A DNA stretch of 32,384 nucleotides from a virus, in IMG/VR virus record IMGVR_UViG_3300043773_001481, positions 1-32,384 of that record. One strand, 5' to 3'. Every line of letters starts with the position of its first letter. Positions within the stretch are counted from its first letter, which is position 1. A model generated the notes under the pieces. The model was not told where the DNA came from, did no database searches, and saw only the letters and a list, made by a program, of their open reading frames with translations. Made by a program: the position numbers and the translations under genes. Below are positions 11,956 to 26,486 of the stretch, piece after piece.

Positions 11956-12306
11956 ATGCCACTCTCCGGACTCCCGACCAGCGGCCCCACGATCCCGGCC
12001 GGGGCCACTCGCGTCTCGATCAAAGAGATCGACACGGCGGCATCCGAGGCCAACTACGAGGACGTGACCGATCTCGCCAGCACGGAGCGAGAGTACGCCG
12101 ACCCGCCGCTCGTCGAGCCGGCCGAGGGTGGCAACGCGACCGCGACCTGTTCGGCGAGCGGTCTCCTCAAGGGTTCGGCCCCGCAGCCGACGGCGATCGG
12201 AACGACAACCGGATGGGTCTGCGAGGACACCGAGATCGTCTACGAGGCCGGCAAATATGCGGCCTGGTCTGCGAATTGGTCTTACTACCCGCCACTGACG
12301 CCGTAG
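11956..12306 (+). CDS. tail tube-like protein 1
   Basis: A 116-residue virion protein. The segment GATRVSIKEIDTAASEANYEDVTDLASTEREYADPPL resembles the second gene in this cluster (GATKVTIKK..., ERVYEDGLVD), so the two are probably paralogues. The region ends WSANWSYYPPL. Beta-rich sequence, size and position fit a small tail-tube fold. Whether it builds the tube or decorates it cannot be told from sequence. Confidence 0.55.
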   Translation: MPLSGLPTSGPTIPAGATRVSIKEIDTAASEANYEDVTDLASTEREYADPPLVEPAEGGNATATCSASGLLKGSAPQPTAIGTTTGWVCEDTEIVYEAGKYAAWSANWSYYPPLTP

Positions 12307-12319
12307 CCAGGAGCCTCGC

Positions 12320-12682
12320 ATGCCTCTTACCAGCTCGCAGGGAAACGCCTACGGGATCGCCGGCGCGACGAAGGTCACGATCAAGAAGGCCCGCGCCAGC
12401 AACCCGAGCGACAACAAGCTCGACGCCTCGACGCTTTCGATCGCTCACGGCGGCGAGCGTGTCTACGAGGACGGCCTTGTCGACAACGGTCCGCAGGGTT
12501 CCACGAACGGCGGAATCGTGACCACAGTCACGGTCGAATTCATGGACGAGCCGACCATGTCGGCGGGCGACACCGCGACTTTTGACGGCGTGACGTGCAA
12601 GTGTGTCGACGTTGAGACCACGAACGAGGCCGGCGCTCTGGTCAAGGGCGTGGCGAACTACACGAGCGACTTCCTGGCCTAA
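12320..12682 (+). CDS. tail tube-like protein 2
   Basis: A 120-residue protein, beta-rich. It starts PLTSSQGNAYGIAGATKVTIKK and shares that framework with the previous gene, and the middle (VTVEFMDEPTMSAGDTATFDGVTCKCVDVETT) looks like a tube-subunit sheet. It probably arose by duplication of its neighbour. The gap before it is 13 nt, and the start is preceded by AGGAG. Confidence 0.55.
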   Translation: MPLTSSQGNAYGIAGATKVTIKKARASNPSDNKLDASTLSIAHGGERVYEDGLVDNGPQGSTNGGIVTTVTVEFMDEPTMSAGDTATFDGVTCKCVDVETTNEAGALVKGVANYTSDFLA

Positions 12683-12700
12683 GAATAATCGAAGGCCGGC

Positions 12701-13093
12701 ATGCCAACCCCAAGTTCACAAGGCGCGACCGTGTCGTTTGACGGCTCGCCGATCGGTCACCTGACCAGCTTCCGAGTCTCGCCTGGGACCGCCCAGTTTG
12801 AGGACGTGACCAACGTCGGGAGCGACGTGATCGGCAGCGGCTGGGACGCCAGGGTCCTTCGCGAACTCGCCTGTACCGGCATTGAACCAGGCGGGCTGGA
12901 CATCAACCTATTCGGGTGTCCGCCGTTCCTGAACACCGACATCGGACTCCAGGCCGCAGTGGCCGTGACGTTCGACGGAGGCGGCTTCGAGTTCGTCGGC
13001 CATCTGGAGACGTTTGAGGTCACCGGCAACGTCGGGCAGTTCCTGACCGGCACGGCCCGTTTCAGGATCGCCGGCCAGGTCGACAACGACTGA
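12701..13093 (+). CDS. tail tube-like protein 3
   Basis: A 130-residue protein with the phrase TPSSQGATVSFDGSPIGHLTSFRVSPGTAQFEDVTNVG, which is typical of small tail-tube proteins, and a second half LQAAVAVTFDGGGFEFVGHLETFEVTGNVGQFLTGTARFRI. It is the best candidate for the major tail tube subunit, being the closest to the usual tube pattern and directly before the assembly chaperones. Confidence 0.65.
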   Translation: MPTPSSQGATVSFDGSPIGHLTSFRVSPGTAQFEDVTNVGSDVIGSGWDARVLRELACTGIEPGGLDINLFGCPPFLNTDIGLQAAVAVTFDGGGFEFVGHLETFEVTGNVGQFLTGTARFRIAGQVDND

Positions 13094-13100
13094 GGAACCA

Positions 13101-13466
13101 ATGAGCATCGCATCGGAAGTATTCGGTGAGTGGAAACCAGAGCTGGTCGAGGTCACGCCGCCTGGCTGCGACAAGCCAGTGAAGCTCCGCTACCCGACCT
13201 ATGGCGAGTGGCACAAGCTCGCCGTGGCCCACCAGCAGCTCGCAGGCAAGGCCCCCGACGCCACGCTGATAATCGACACGATCGCGGCATGTATCGCCGA
13301 CGACGCAGGGAAACGGAAGCTCTCGTCTGACAAGGCACGCGGCCTGCTCGACGCGAGCCCTCGGGCGGTCATGTGGCTCTACAAGCAGTGTTGGGAGACC
13401 GTACTGAAAAGCGACGACGAGACCGTGGCGGAGTTGGAAAAAAACTCCGCAGCCGGGCAGGAATGA
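13101..13466 (+). CDS. tail assembly chaperone (G-like)
   Basis: A 121-residue acidic helical protein placed, like lambda G, between tail tube and tape measure. The start MSIASEVFGEWKPELVEVTPPG is followed by helices (EWHKLAVAHQQLA, TLIIDTIAACIADDAGKRKL) and an acidic end. Such proteins hold the tape measure during assembly. The final codons cross an A AAA AAC slippery site at 13439-13445, which would shift a fraction of ribosomes into the next frame. Confidence 0.75.
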   Translation: MSIASEVFGEWKPELVEVTPPGCDKPVKLRYPTYGEWHKLAVAHQQLAGKAPDATLIIDTIAACIADDAGKRKLSSDKARGLLDASPRAVMWLYKQCWETVLKSDDETVAELEKNSAAGQE

Positions 13467-13489
13467 TCGAACGGTTCCTGTACCGGCTG
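13439..13489 (+). promoter_or_regulatory. programmed -1 ribosomal frameshift signal
   Basis: The heptamer A AAA AAC (13439-13445) is read in frame as AAA AAC. It is followed after about 4-5 nt by a two-part stem-loop: AGCCGG (13451-13456) with CCGGCT (13483-13488) and CAGGAA (13458-13463) with TTCCTG (13475-13480), with a one-by-two internal loop and an 11-nt apical loop; C13450-G13489 may extend it. A -1 slip would continue into the frame of the next gene without a stop, giving about 222 residues. This is the same logic as lambda G/GT. Confidence 0.75.
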
Positions 13490-13768
13490 GCAGCGCATCA
13501 CCGAATTTGGAACGTCGAGGAATGGAAGTACGAGATCAGCCTCCGGCAGCTTCTCCGATGGATCGCGGCCTACAAGGTCGAGCCATTCGGCGAGGACTGG
13601 CTCCGGACCGCACGGTCGACCGTGACGATCCTCCGGGGGCTGGGCTGCAAGGTGGACGAAGACTTCGAGAAAAAGTTCCTGCCGGGCTATGACCCGAACC
13701 GCGAGATGACGCCGGACGAGATCGAGGCCGAGCTGCAAAAGCTGAGCATGTTCACGAGGCGAAAGTAA
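13463..13768 (+). CDS. tail assembly chaperone, T-like part of frameshift product
   Basis: A 101-residue region with IERFLYRLAAHHRIWNVEEWKYEISLRQLLRWIAAYKVEPFG and a C-terminal EMTPDEIEAELQKLSMFTRRK. The frame is open upstream to 13373, which allows fusion to the preceding gene through the slippery site. The only good internal start, ATG 13463, is buried in the 3' part of the lower helix of the stem-loop, so independent translation is less likely. It ends 1 nt into the tape measure start. Confidence 0.75.
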   Translation: MIERFLYRLAAHHRIWNVEEWKYEISLRQLLRWIAAYKVEPFGEDWLRTARSTVTILRGLGCKVDEDFEKKFLPGYDPNREMTPDEIEAELQKLSMFTRRK

Positions 13769-15291
13769 TGGCCGCCATCGGCAAAGTATCGGCTGTCTTC
13801 ACGGCCTCCACGAGCGGGCTCACGACCGGCGTCAATCGGGCGGCGTCGTCGTTTAAGCAGCTCGAGGCGTCGACAAAGTCGCTCCAGTCCGGTATGCGGG
13901 CGCTGGTGGCGATCAACGCCACCCAATTCTTTGCCGGCATCGCGAGCACGGCGGCCGGCTACGTGTCGAGCCTGGTCAGAATGGGCCAGGCCCAGGCGGA
14001 GGTCGTCGACTCCACGAGCAAGCTCGCCGCCCGGCTCGGGATGACCTACGCCGAAATGGCCGGACTGTCGCTGGCCGGCAACCTGGCGGGCGTGTCGCTC
14101 GAGCAGATCGGGGCCGCCGCCACGAAGGCGGACGTGGCCTTCGTGCGGGCCGGCCAAGGATCGAAGAAGGCGATCGAGGCCTTCGCCGGCCTGGGCCTGA
14201 CGGTGGAGCAGCTCAACGGCCTCAGTGCCGCGGACCGGTTCGACGCGATCGCCTCCGCCATCGCGGCCCTGCCGACCGAGGCGGAGCGGGCCGCCGCGGC
14301 CGTCCAAATCTTCGGTCGTGCCGGGGCCGAGCTGATGCCGCTGTTCAACGGTGGAGCCGGAGCGATCGCCGCGGCCCGCGAGGAGGCGGAGCGGTTCGGG
14401 CTGGCCCTGACGAACGCCCAGGGCCAGGATATCGAGGCCATGAACGACGCGTTCACGCGGGCACAGCAGGCCGTGGCGGGCGTCGTCCAGCAGGTCGTGG
14501 CCTACTTGGCTCCGGCCGTCGAGGCGGTCGCCACGGCCTTCTCCGATCTGATTGGCTCAATCGGCGGGGCGAACATCGGCCAGGCGATCGGCGACGGCAT
14601 TCTCCAGGGAGCGCGGTTCCTGGCCGGCGTCGGCGACTTCGTGATCCAGAATTTTGGCAGCACGTTCGCCTACCTATCGCAGGTCGGCCAGCAGTGGGGG
14701 GCCGTGGTCGACTTCTTCAGCCGGACGGCCCTGTTCCTCTCCGGCATCGCCGACGGCCTCCAGGCCGCCTTCGGCATCATCATTCAGGGAATCTCCGGCC
14801 CTGTGCAGTCGCTCATGGAAGCGGCCCAGTACATCGGCCAGGCCCTCGGGTTCGACACGTCGAGCCTCGACGCGGCGGTCGCCGGCATGCAGGCTTTTAA
14901 CTCAGAGATCTCGAACGGCATCACCGAGAACCTCAACTCAGCCTCTGCCAACTTCAGCGCCGCCTTTGCGGCCGACGCCCCGCAGGTCGGCCAGGCCCTG
15001 ACGGGGCCGCTCACGACCGCCCTCGACTCCGCGATCGCCCAGGCGGAGGCCTCGGCCGCCCAGATCGACGAGGCCGCCACGACGCCCGTCGAAGTGAAGC
15101 AGACGGTCGAGATCGCGTCGATCAACCAGGCGCTCAAGGGCATCGACTCCCGCTCGACCGAGGGCGTGGCCGAGATGTTCCGCCTGATGCGTGGATCGAG
15201 TGGAGACGTTCAGCAGCAGCAGCTCAACGTCCTCGAGCAGATCGCGGAGAACACGGCCGCCGGCGAGGAAGTCCTCGTCGCTGACTTCTAG
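13768..15291 (+). CDS. tape measure protein
   Basis: A 507-residue tape measure protein. It begins with a coiled-coil region (SSFKQLEASTKSLQSGMRALVAINATQFFAG), has Ala/Gln-rich helical repeats, and central hydrophobic segments near residues 270-370 (IGQAIGDGILQGARFLAGVGDFVIQ, LFLSGIADGLQAAFGIIIQGISG) that may pass through the host membrane during DNA entry. The C-terminus is helical (VQQQQLNVLEQIAENTAAGEEV). Tape length sets tail length; 507 residues is short for a siphovirus, so the tail is probably short, roughly 75 nm by the usual 0.15 nm per residue. Confidence 0.85.
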   Translation: MAAIGKVSAVFTASTSGLTTGVNRAASSFKQLEASTKSLQSGMRALVAINATQFFAGIASTAAGYVSSLVRMGQAQAEVVDSTSKLAARLGMTYAEMAGLSLAGNLAGVSLEQIGAAATKADVAFVRAGQGSKKAIEAFAGLGLTVEQLNGLSAADRFDAIASAIAALPTEAERAAAAVQIFGRAGAELMPLFNGGAGAIAAAREEAERFGLALTNAQGQDIEAMNDAFTRAQQAVAGVVQQVVAYLAPAVEAVATAFSDLIGSIGGANIGQAIGDGILQGARFLAGVGDFVIQNFGSTFAYLSQVGQQWGAVVDFFSRTALFLSGIADGLQAAFGIIIQGISGPVQSLMEAAQYIGQALGFDTSSLDAAVAGMQAFNSEISNGITENLNSASANFSAAFAADAPQVGQALTGPLTTALDSAIAQAEASAAQIDEAATTPVEVKQTVEIASINQALKGIDSRSTEGVAEMFRLMRGSSGDVQQQQLNVLEQIAENTAAGEEVLVADF

Positions 15292-19616: not shown

Positions 19617-20489
19617 TCAAGCAGGCGGCCGCAGCTCACGTGGGGCCGGGATGCCGGTCCCGGTGAGCGTCTGGTCTTCGTAGCTGGCCCGAAAGACGGC
19701 TGGCGTGTTCCCCAGGTGCCGGTGGCCGAGGCCGCGGGCCTGTAGTTCGACATCGGTGCCGCTGCCCCTGCGGATCCATTTCCAGGTGCCGGGCCTGACC
19801 CCGGCCTTCGCCACGAGCCGCGTCACTTGGTCCCTGAAGGTCTCCGGGCTTGTGGGCCACGGACATACCAGCCTTCGCGGACAGGCCTCCAGGGAGGCCC
19901 GCAGGGCCTCCAGCGTTGACGGAGACAGGCGGAAGGCAGACACCTTGGCGGTCTTACTCTGCGACAGCGTGCAAGCCCCGTCGGGTCCGATCTGGTCTAT
20001 CCGCAGCGTGACAAGATCGCCCCAGCGGATTCCGGAATCCCACGCCACTCGGATCGCGAGATCCCACCAGACCGCCCGCCGCAGCCCGCAGCGATGCCAG
20101 CGAGGTAGTTTGGCCGCCGCCGCCATGAGCCTCTCGACCTCCTCCTTCGTCCAGGCCACGACCACCAGCTCCGGCAGTCGGACACGTCGGACGCGGCGGG
20201 AGCGTGGCTCATCGCACAGGCCTTCATCGGAGGCCGCCCTCCAGAGTGCCAGGATTGCCTGTTTCTTGGCCCGCACGGTGTGGGGGGCCACGGTGGCCGA
20301 GTAGGCCTGTAGCCATTCCGATGCCAGCCGCTCGTCAAGTTCGTCGAGACGAACGGGCTTTCCTGCCCAGCGGTCAATGAGGTTGACGGCAATTTGGTAC
20401 TGCCGTACCGTCCCGCCCCGAATGTCTCGCTGGAGCTGGTATTCCTCGAGGTATTCGCGCAGGGTTTCGGGTCGTGCTCGTCGAATCAT
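19617..20489 (-). CDS. int: tyrosine recombinase (integrase)
   Basis: A 290-residue tyrosine recombinase, the only minus-strand gene. The N-terminal SAM-like core-binding domain (residues about 10-90, ending TVRAKKQAILALWRAASDEGL) precedes the catalytic domain with Arg155 in GIRWGDLVTL, a Lys near 179-182, Arg240, His258 in LGHRHLGN and the nucleophile Tyr270 in RASYED. The usual His of HxxR is replaced by Lys237 in KWIR. It integrates or excises the phage with the attachment core at 20611-20660. The next gene in the other direction is the excisionase-like protein at 20756. Confidence 0.85.
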   Translation of the reverse strand: MIRRARPETLREYLEEYQLQRDIRGGTVRQYQIAVNLIDRWAGKPVRLDELDERLASEWLQAYSATVAPHTVRAKKQAILALWRAASDEGLCDEPRSRRVRRVRLPELVVVAWTKEEVERLMAAAAKLPRWHRCGLRRAVWWDLAIRVAWDSGIRWGDLVTLRIDQIGPDGACTLSQSKTAKVSAFRLSPSTLEALRASLEACPRRLVCPWPTSPETFRDQVTRLVAKAGVRPGTWKWIRRGSGTDVELQARGLGHRHLGNTPAVFRASYEDQTLTGTGIPAPRELRPPA

Positions 20490-25532: not shown

Positions 25533-25808
25533 GGCGTGGCCTGTCAAGGCCTGGCCGGGCCGGGCTGGGCCCGGCATGGCGAGGCCGGGCTAGGCCGGGC
25601 CCGGCTGGGCTTGGCGAGGCAAGGGAGCCAATGGCTCAACAGACAGGCCAAGCAAGGCTCGGCAAGGCAAGGCAGGGCTCGGCAGGGCGTGGCGAGGCTA
25701 GGGAGCCTATGGCTCACCAGACAATCCAAGCGTGGCGCGGCGGGGCACGGCAAGGCAGGGCTCGGCAGGGCGTGGCATGGCTCGGCGAGGCAAGGTGCCC
25801 AATGGGCA
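25533..25808 (+). repeat. GGCNN pentamer array 1 (three cassettes)
   Basis: Three tracts of period-5 GGCNN, with 15, 9 and 12 uninterrupted units, each closed by a hairpin at 25625-25637, 25703-25715 and 25796-25808. The first two hairpins are GAGCC with GGCTC around AAT or TAT; the third is TGCCC with GGGCA, a compensatory change. Between hairpin and next tract runs a linker like ACAGACAATCCAA. The NN positions vary freely while GGC is kept. The array fills the 302-nt gap between two genes and ends 11 nt before a Shine-Dalgarno sequence. Confidence 0.9.
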
Positions 25809-25830
25809 GTTTCACAACAGGAGAAAAGAG

Positions 25831-26292
25831 ATGATCGACAAGAAGTACGACGCCGAAATCGACGCGGTTCTGGATGCTGTGGCGGTGTTTCCGAAGGGAA
25901 CGACCGTTCCGTGGGCGGTGATTGAATCCGCGATGGGGCGGCACCGTGATGAGACTGGAGGCTGGACGATCATCCGTCGTGCTCGCCGCAGGCTTCTGCG
26001 GGACCGCCAGGTGGCCTGCCTTCCTGACCCGACCGTCGGGCTTCGGCTGCTTTCAGACATGGAGGCCGCCACGGAGATTCCGGAACTGCGGCAGAAGAAG
26101 GCCAAGAGGCAGATCGCGCGAGGGCTTCGCGAGACGGACGCGATCGACACGTCGCAACTCACCAAGCACGCCAGCGTTGCGCTTGCGATGTCGAGGAAGC
26201 ACATGAAGGCGGAGCGGCTCGCGTTGTCTCGCGCGAGGCGAGAGGTACAGTCGCTCACAAAGCCGACTCGGTCGGCGATGTCGGCGCAATGA
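25831..26292 (+). CDS. hypothetical protein between pentamer arrays
   Basis: A 153-residue protein flanked on both sides by GGCNN arrays. The N-terminal 80 residues may form a winged-helix-like fold (AVLDAVAVFPKGTTVPWAVIESAMGRHRDETGGWTIIRRARRRLLRDR); the C-terminal half is basic and helical (LRQKKAKRQIARGLRE, KHMKAERLALSRARREVQSL), suited to nucleic acid binding. Start ATG 25831 is preceded by AGGAG 8 nt away. Whether it interacts with the arrays that border it is unknown but worth testing. Confidence 0.65.
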   Translation: MIDKKYDAEIDAVLDAVAVFPKGTTVPWAVIESAMGRHRDETGGWTIIRRARRRLLRDRQVACLPDPTVGLRLLSDMEAATEIPELRQKKAKRQIARGLRETDAIDTSQLTKHASVALAMSRKHMKAERLALSRARREVQSLTKPTRSAMSAQ

Positions 26293-26308
26293 TCTGAAGC
26301 CTATTAGT

Positions 26309-26486
26309 GGCGAGGCTCGGCGGGGCTCGGCATGGCCAGGCACGGCCGGGCGGGGCCCGGCGAGGCAAGGGAGCCAATGGCTCGACAGACAATCCAATCG
26401 CGGCGAGGCATGGCTGGGCATGGCTGGGCAGGGCCAGGCGCGGCAGGGCTCGGCGCGGCTGGGCAAGGCAAGGGAGCCAATGGCTC
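26309..26486 (+). repeat. GGCNN pentamer array 2 (two cassettes)
   Basis: Tracts of 12 and 14 uninterrupted GGCNN units end in hairpins GAGCC-AAT-GGCTC at 26371-26383 and 26474-26486. The linker after the first hairpin is ACAGACAATCCAA, as in array 1. Hairpin-to-hairpin distances here and in array 1 (78, 93 and 103 nt) differ by multiples of five, the sign of whole-pentamer gain or loss. The array lies between the preceding small gene and an HNH gene, whose AAGGAG follows 20 nt later. Confidence 0.9.

Follow-up and report, generated by a model that had tools for sequence, protein, structure and literature searches.

The window analysed here, which is the whole 32,384-nucleotide stretch of IMG/VR virus record IMGVR_UViG_3300043773_001481, carries two small open reading frames (ORFs) immediately upstream of a tape measure gene, and the question raised by their overlap is whether the second is a gene with a start of its own or is entered by ribosomes slipping back one nucleotide near the end of the first. 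Judged from its sequence and from that of diverged relatives, the locus is very probably that of an uncultured, lambda/HK97-like siphophage whose tail-assembly chaperone gene contains a programmed -1 ribosomal frameshift. The features on which this reading draws are the following:

13101-13466, + strand: G-like tail assembly chaperone, zero-frame product of 121 aa (phrog_344 and HK97 2OB9 matches)
13439-13445, + strand: slippery heptamer A_AAA_AAC (from the sequence; X_XXY_YYZ pattern in 43 of 44 distinct sequences including the window)
13446-13449, + strand: spacer of exactly 4 nt (from the heptamer sequence and the hairpin prediction)
13450-13489, + strand: bulged hairpin, presumed frameshift stimulator (predicted fold, -25.1 kcal/mol)
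13463-13465, + strand: nominal ATG of the second ORF, overlapping the TGA of ORF 1 (13464-13466) as ATGA
13445-13768, + strand: T-like domain of 107 aa beyond the heptamer, read in the -1 frame (open frame; PF06223 and phrog_337 matches)
13768-15291, + strand: tape measure protein, 507 aa (phrog_9483, E 6.7e-33), directly downstream of the T frame

Reading frames and proteins at the junction

Across the heptamer, ORF 1 (13101-13466) is read as GAA (13437-13439), AAA (13440-13442), and AAC (13443-13445), the phase that a tandem -1 slip requires. No stop interrupts the -1 frame from a point upstream of the heptamer until the one at 13766-13768, and translation across the slip gives a predicted fusion product of 222 aa. 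An in-frame A AAA AAC, a -1 frame open into the next gene, and a fusion of about 222 residues had been proposed by a sequence-only reading of this DNA, and all three were borne out, the last as a predicted length. The spacer, previously given as 4-5 nt, was found to be exactly 4 nt by prediction; this lies at the short edge of the 5-8 nt usual at frameshift sites (PMC4066793) and was counted against the frameshift reading. The TGA of ORF 1 (13464-13466) is located 18 nt downstream of the heptamer, and the heptamer itself is part of an A7 run (13438-13444). In the main genes of the window, which has a G+C content of 67%, any in-frame X_XXY_YYZ occurred in 11 of 5,865 codon pairs, and A6N was found in two places only in the whole window with both strands counted. 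An in-frame GGGAAAC in the upstream ORF 12320-12682 was set aside, as it is near the start of that gene. A GGAG (13430-13433) about 5 nt from the heptamer, in place of which many relatives have GGAGG or GAGGT, was not claimed as a Shine-Dalgarno-like stimulator, as it could just encode acidic residues.

The protein families agree with the earlier assignment of these ORFs as tail chaperone genes. ORF 1 matched the tail assembly chaperone family phrog_344 (E 1.2e-4 for the window; 24 of 24 relatives, best E 2.1e-20), and the profile of its family retrieved the HK97 tail assembly chaperone 2OB9 as the best PDB sequence match (E 2.8e-4), while a search of ORF 1 against NCBIfam yielded no match. 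The predicted model of ORF 1 (pLDDT 83.5) likewise had 2OB9 as its top Foldseek match (probability 1.00, E 0.016, TM about 0.5). ORF 2 of the window reached PF06223 (Phage_tail_T, Minor tail protein T) with an E-value of 0.0019 and a score of 19.0, which is below the cut-off of 25.9; the same family, that of lambda T, was matched by 25 of 27 ORF 2 relatives (best E 1.2e-10), and the tail protein family phrog_337 by 22 of 27. The model predicted for ORF 2 had low confidence (pTM 0.48) and was left aside. The chaperone cassette is placed between the tape measure gene and upstream genes presumed to encode the tail tube, the latter being assigned by position. In this tail-tube place, three small ORFs (116, 120, and 130 aa) stand in a row before the chaperone (11956-13093); no family match was obtained for them, and the first resembles the second weakly (27%, E 0.001), with hardly any resemblance between the second and third.

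Conservation of the slip site and the hairpin among relatives

With ORF 1 as query, only 7 near-identical contigs were matched, and there was no match among cultured phages or among genome contigs; a search for portal-gene relatives in genome contigs returned one short contig that does not contain the chaperone region. Relatives were gathered via the capsid and tape measure proteins instead, yielding about 75 loci, and the chaperone region was readable in 44 distinct sequences, i.e., 43 uncultured-virus relatives plus the window. At all 44 distinct junctions, the downstream ORF was offset by a -1 frame from the one before it. An in-frame X_XXY_YYZ was present at 43 of them (32 AAAAAAC, 5 AAAAAAA, 3 GGGAAAC, 2 GGGAAAA, and 1 AAAAAAT); thus, the heptamer letters vary among relatives and the tandem-slip pattern does not. 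These sequences are related to each other, and neither the conservation counts nor the folding counts given below are independent.

Two stop-position regimes were observed. In one, seen in about half of the distinct sequences, ORF 1 ends directly at the heptamer or no more than 3 nt beyond it (this stop-abutting subgroup includes L016, L019, L025, and others); in the other, ORF 1 runs on into the hairpin, and its stop comes 18-21 nt after the heptamer. The single exception to the heptamer pattern, L076, keeps the T ORF in the -1 frame and reads GCG GAA AAA TCC at the junction; over GCGGAAAAATCC, within L076:4600-4780, the heptamer is reduced to GGAAAAAT. L076 may truly have lost the signal, may rely on a weaker slip of one tRNA on A_AAA, or may reflect an error in sequencing. 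That the slip site shifts between the two stop-position regimes within one lineage, with the T product of L076 made via A_AAA or another route, is rather unlikely; if true, the family would illustrate how a frameshift cassette can be altered or dropped without loss of the GT product.

In the window, positions 13450-13464 are predicted to pair with 13474-13489 around a 9-nt loop. The stem-loop is two-part as previously described, with 7 outer pairs, a 1-nt bulge at 13482, and 8 inner pairs; the 12 bp given for it did not hold, as the prediction comprises 13 Watson-Crick and 2 G-U pairs. The z-score of this hairpin was -2.1 against dinucleotide shuffles and -2.76 (p 0.016) against controls in which the T-frame protein was fixed and synonymous codons were randomised. 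When these codon-randomised controls were applied to 32 distinct sequences, the natural sequence folded better in 29 (p <=0.05), with a mean z of -2.9; L027 and L032 did so weakly, and L063 folded no better than its controls. No single consensus structure over all 32 sequences was obtained because the subgroups pair in different registers, and two subgroups were analysed apart. In the window subgroup (19 sequences), 96% of cells were paired, and sliding the partners by 1-3 columns lowered this to 24-47%. The basal stem pair of this subgroup varies between C-G, G-C, A-U, and U-G; the stop-adjacent subgroup has a hairpin of its own, in which C-G/G-C and G-C/A-U exchanges occur (G-C to C-G and to A-U). 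Covariation is modest because both arms are also protein-coding. Synonymous variation was reduced in the last four ORF 1 codons before the shift (0.008 vs 0.284 elsewhere) and in the T-frame codons of the stem (0.144 vs 0.306 elsewhere). On these sequence comparisons, the hairpin is under selection. Taken with the G- and T-type families, the conservation of heptamer, frame relation, and hairpin across diverged relatives upholds the lambda G/GT-like -1 frameshift signal that had been proposed.

Start of the second frame and competing explanations

The sequence-only reading had placed the ATG of the second gene inside the stem, and its position is right (13463-13465), with A and U in the stem and G opening the loop. 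The overlap of this ATG with the TGA is just the kind seen in coupled genes, and upstream the T frame of the window stays open as far as a GTG (13373). On these grounds, ORF 2 could be a gene in its own right, entered by termination-reinitiation at the ATGA (13463-13466) or from the GTG, with heptamer and hairpin being incidental. Such an arrangement is highly improbable given the relatives. The window-type ATG was found in only 7 of 43 sequences, namely the close kin of the window plus two others, and is absent from the other 36, yet frame and heptamer are kept where it is missing. Where ORF 1 already ends at the heptamer or up to 3 nt past it, as in about half of the distinct sequences, its stop lies upstream of the would-be ATG, so that nothing is left for reinitiation at that position. 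At least five relatives (L016, L022, L044, L071, and L072) have no T-frame ATG, GTG, or TTG between the last in-frame stop and the FLYRLA-type motif of the T core, a count that covers these three codons, beside which CTG or other rare starts may be used; in L044, the first such codon is codon 65. The T product of these relatives would accordingly have to come from the shift. Moreover, the T-frame residues from the heptamer to the FLYRLA-type motif ('LRS...') are conserved, also across the stop-position divide. The second ORF is thus probably not an independently started gene as far as these alignments indicate: of the proposed 'second gene' in the -1 frame, the frame stands and the independent start probably does not, and annotation would do better to list this gene as a frameshift extension. 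In the window itself, reinitiation could still yield a minor product alongside that of the frameshift.

Slippage of RNA polymerase on the A7 run (13438-13444), in place of ribosome slippage, would be another source of a second product, since A-runs can cause transcriptional slippage and a hairpin can likewise promote it (PMC5009743). With A7 in the window and A8 in the L063/L070/L071 group, the window alone does not decide between the two. The family does speak to it: four relatives with GGGAAAC or GGGAAAA (L027, L032, L072, and L073) have the same arrangement and no long homopolymer, which makes polymerase slippage unlikely for the family, and both the conserved in-frame tandem-codon phase and a hairpin at the distance of a frameshift stimulator count against it as well. 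We consider this explanation highly improbable as well.

Proposed mechanism and known systems

Under the preferred reading of a programmed -1 ribosomal frameshift, most ribosomes would translate 13101-13466 and yield the G-like chaperone of 121 aa. The hairpin (13450-13489) would pause a minority of ribosomes, in which the two tRNAs would re-pair on A_AAA_AAC from AAA-AAC to AAA-AAA, and the slipped ribosomes would read the -1 frame to 13768, giving the 222-residue GT-like fusion as a minority product. By analogy with lambda, we infer that the role of the G part would be to cover the tape measure protein, and that of the T part to recruit the tail-tube subunit.

In lambda, G and GT are produced by a -1 frameshift at G_GGA_AAG. 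The lambda G:GT ratio is about 30:1, with G binding the tape measure protein and T binding the tube subunit, and the G/GT arrangement is reported to be kept widely among phages with long tails (PMC5009743, a review that cites Xu, Hendrix and Duda 2004 for conserved equivalents in dsDNA phages). The window resembles lambda in that the tape measure gene is directly preceded by two small ORFs, the first of which carries the -1 shift site close to its end, and in combining a G-type chaperone with a T-type extension (PF06223). It differs in its heptamer (A_AAA_AAC), in its clear downstream hairpin, and in a protein that is only remotely similar to known chaperones: 2OB9 of HK97 is both the best profile and the top fold match of the G-like part, yet the identity is 16% and the TM about 0.5. 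In E. coli, A_AAA_AAC induces far less shifting than A_AAA_AAG (PMC5009743), a weakness that was counted against the frameshift reading and that would fit a low-ratio product; in the phage's own host, with its own tRNAs, the efficiency may differ.

Two of the heptamers of this family have counterparts in the same gene position in the Caulobacter phages phiCbK (AAAAAAC) and Colossus (GGGAAAC), whose sites were identified from sequence (PMC3556154) and which are compared with the window family here by heptamer and position. In gp12/gp13 of Acinetobacter phage Loki, AAAAAAC abuts the stop codon (PMC5313236). Loki thus has the heptamer of the window family and the layout of the second, stop-abutting subgroup, and differs from the window, where the stop is not abutting. 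With the tape measure protein, the phage collection gave two matches and no others, the cultured phages P12026 of Marinomonas (L085) and PB15 of Alteromonas (L084), and both are matched through this protein alone. Their ORF preceding the tape measure gene carries, close to its end, an in-frame AAAAAAG in P12026 and an in-frame CCCAAAG in PB15, and the junction ORFs of both are annotated as separate hypothetical proteins; from their sequence, both are likely unannotated G/GT frameshifts.

The signal is a well-supported case of a long-known phage decoding trick and ordinary in kind, and no principle is changed by it. At the level of the signal, the lambda G/GT trick is confirmed in an uncultured G+C-rich lineage whose tail proteins are almost unmatched among cultured phages, and within the family, heptamer, stop position, and stem vary naturally in dozens of forms, from which annotation tools and a comparative reporter study could profit.

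Elsewhere in the window, a tyrosine integrase (PF00589) is encoded mid-record on the minus strand (19617-20489), and the phage is therefore probably temperate. At 25548-26469, G+C-rich imperfect tandem repeats with GGCAAGGCNAGGC-like units flank a small ORF on both sides, and long spurious-looking ORFs run across these repeats.
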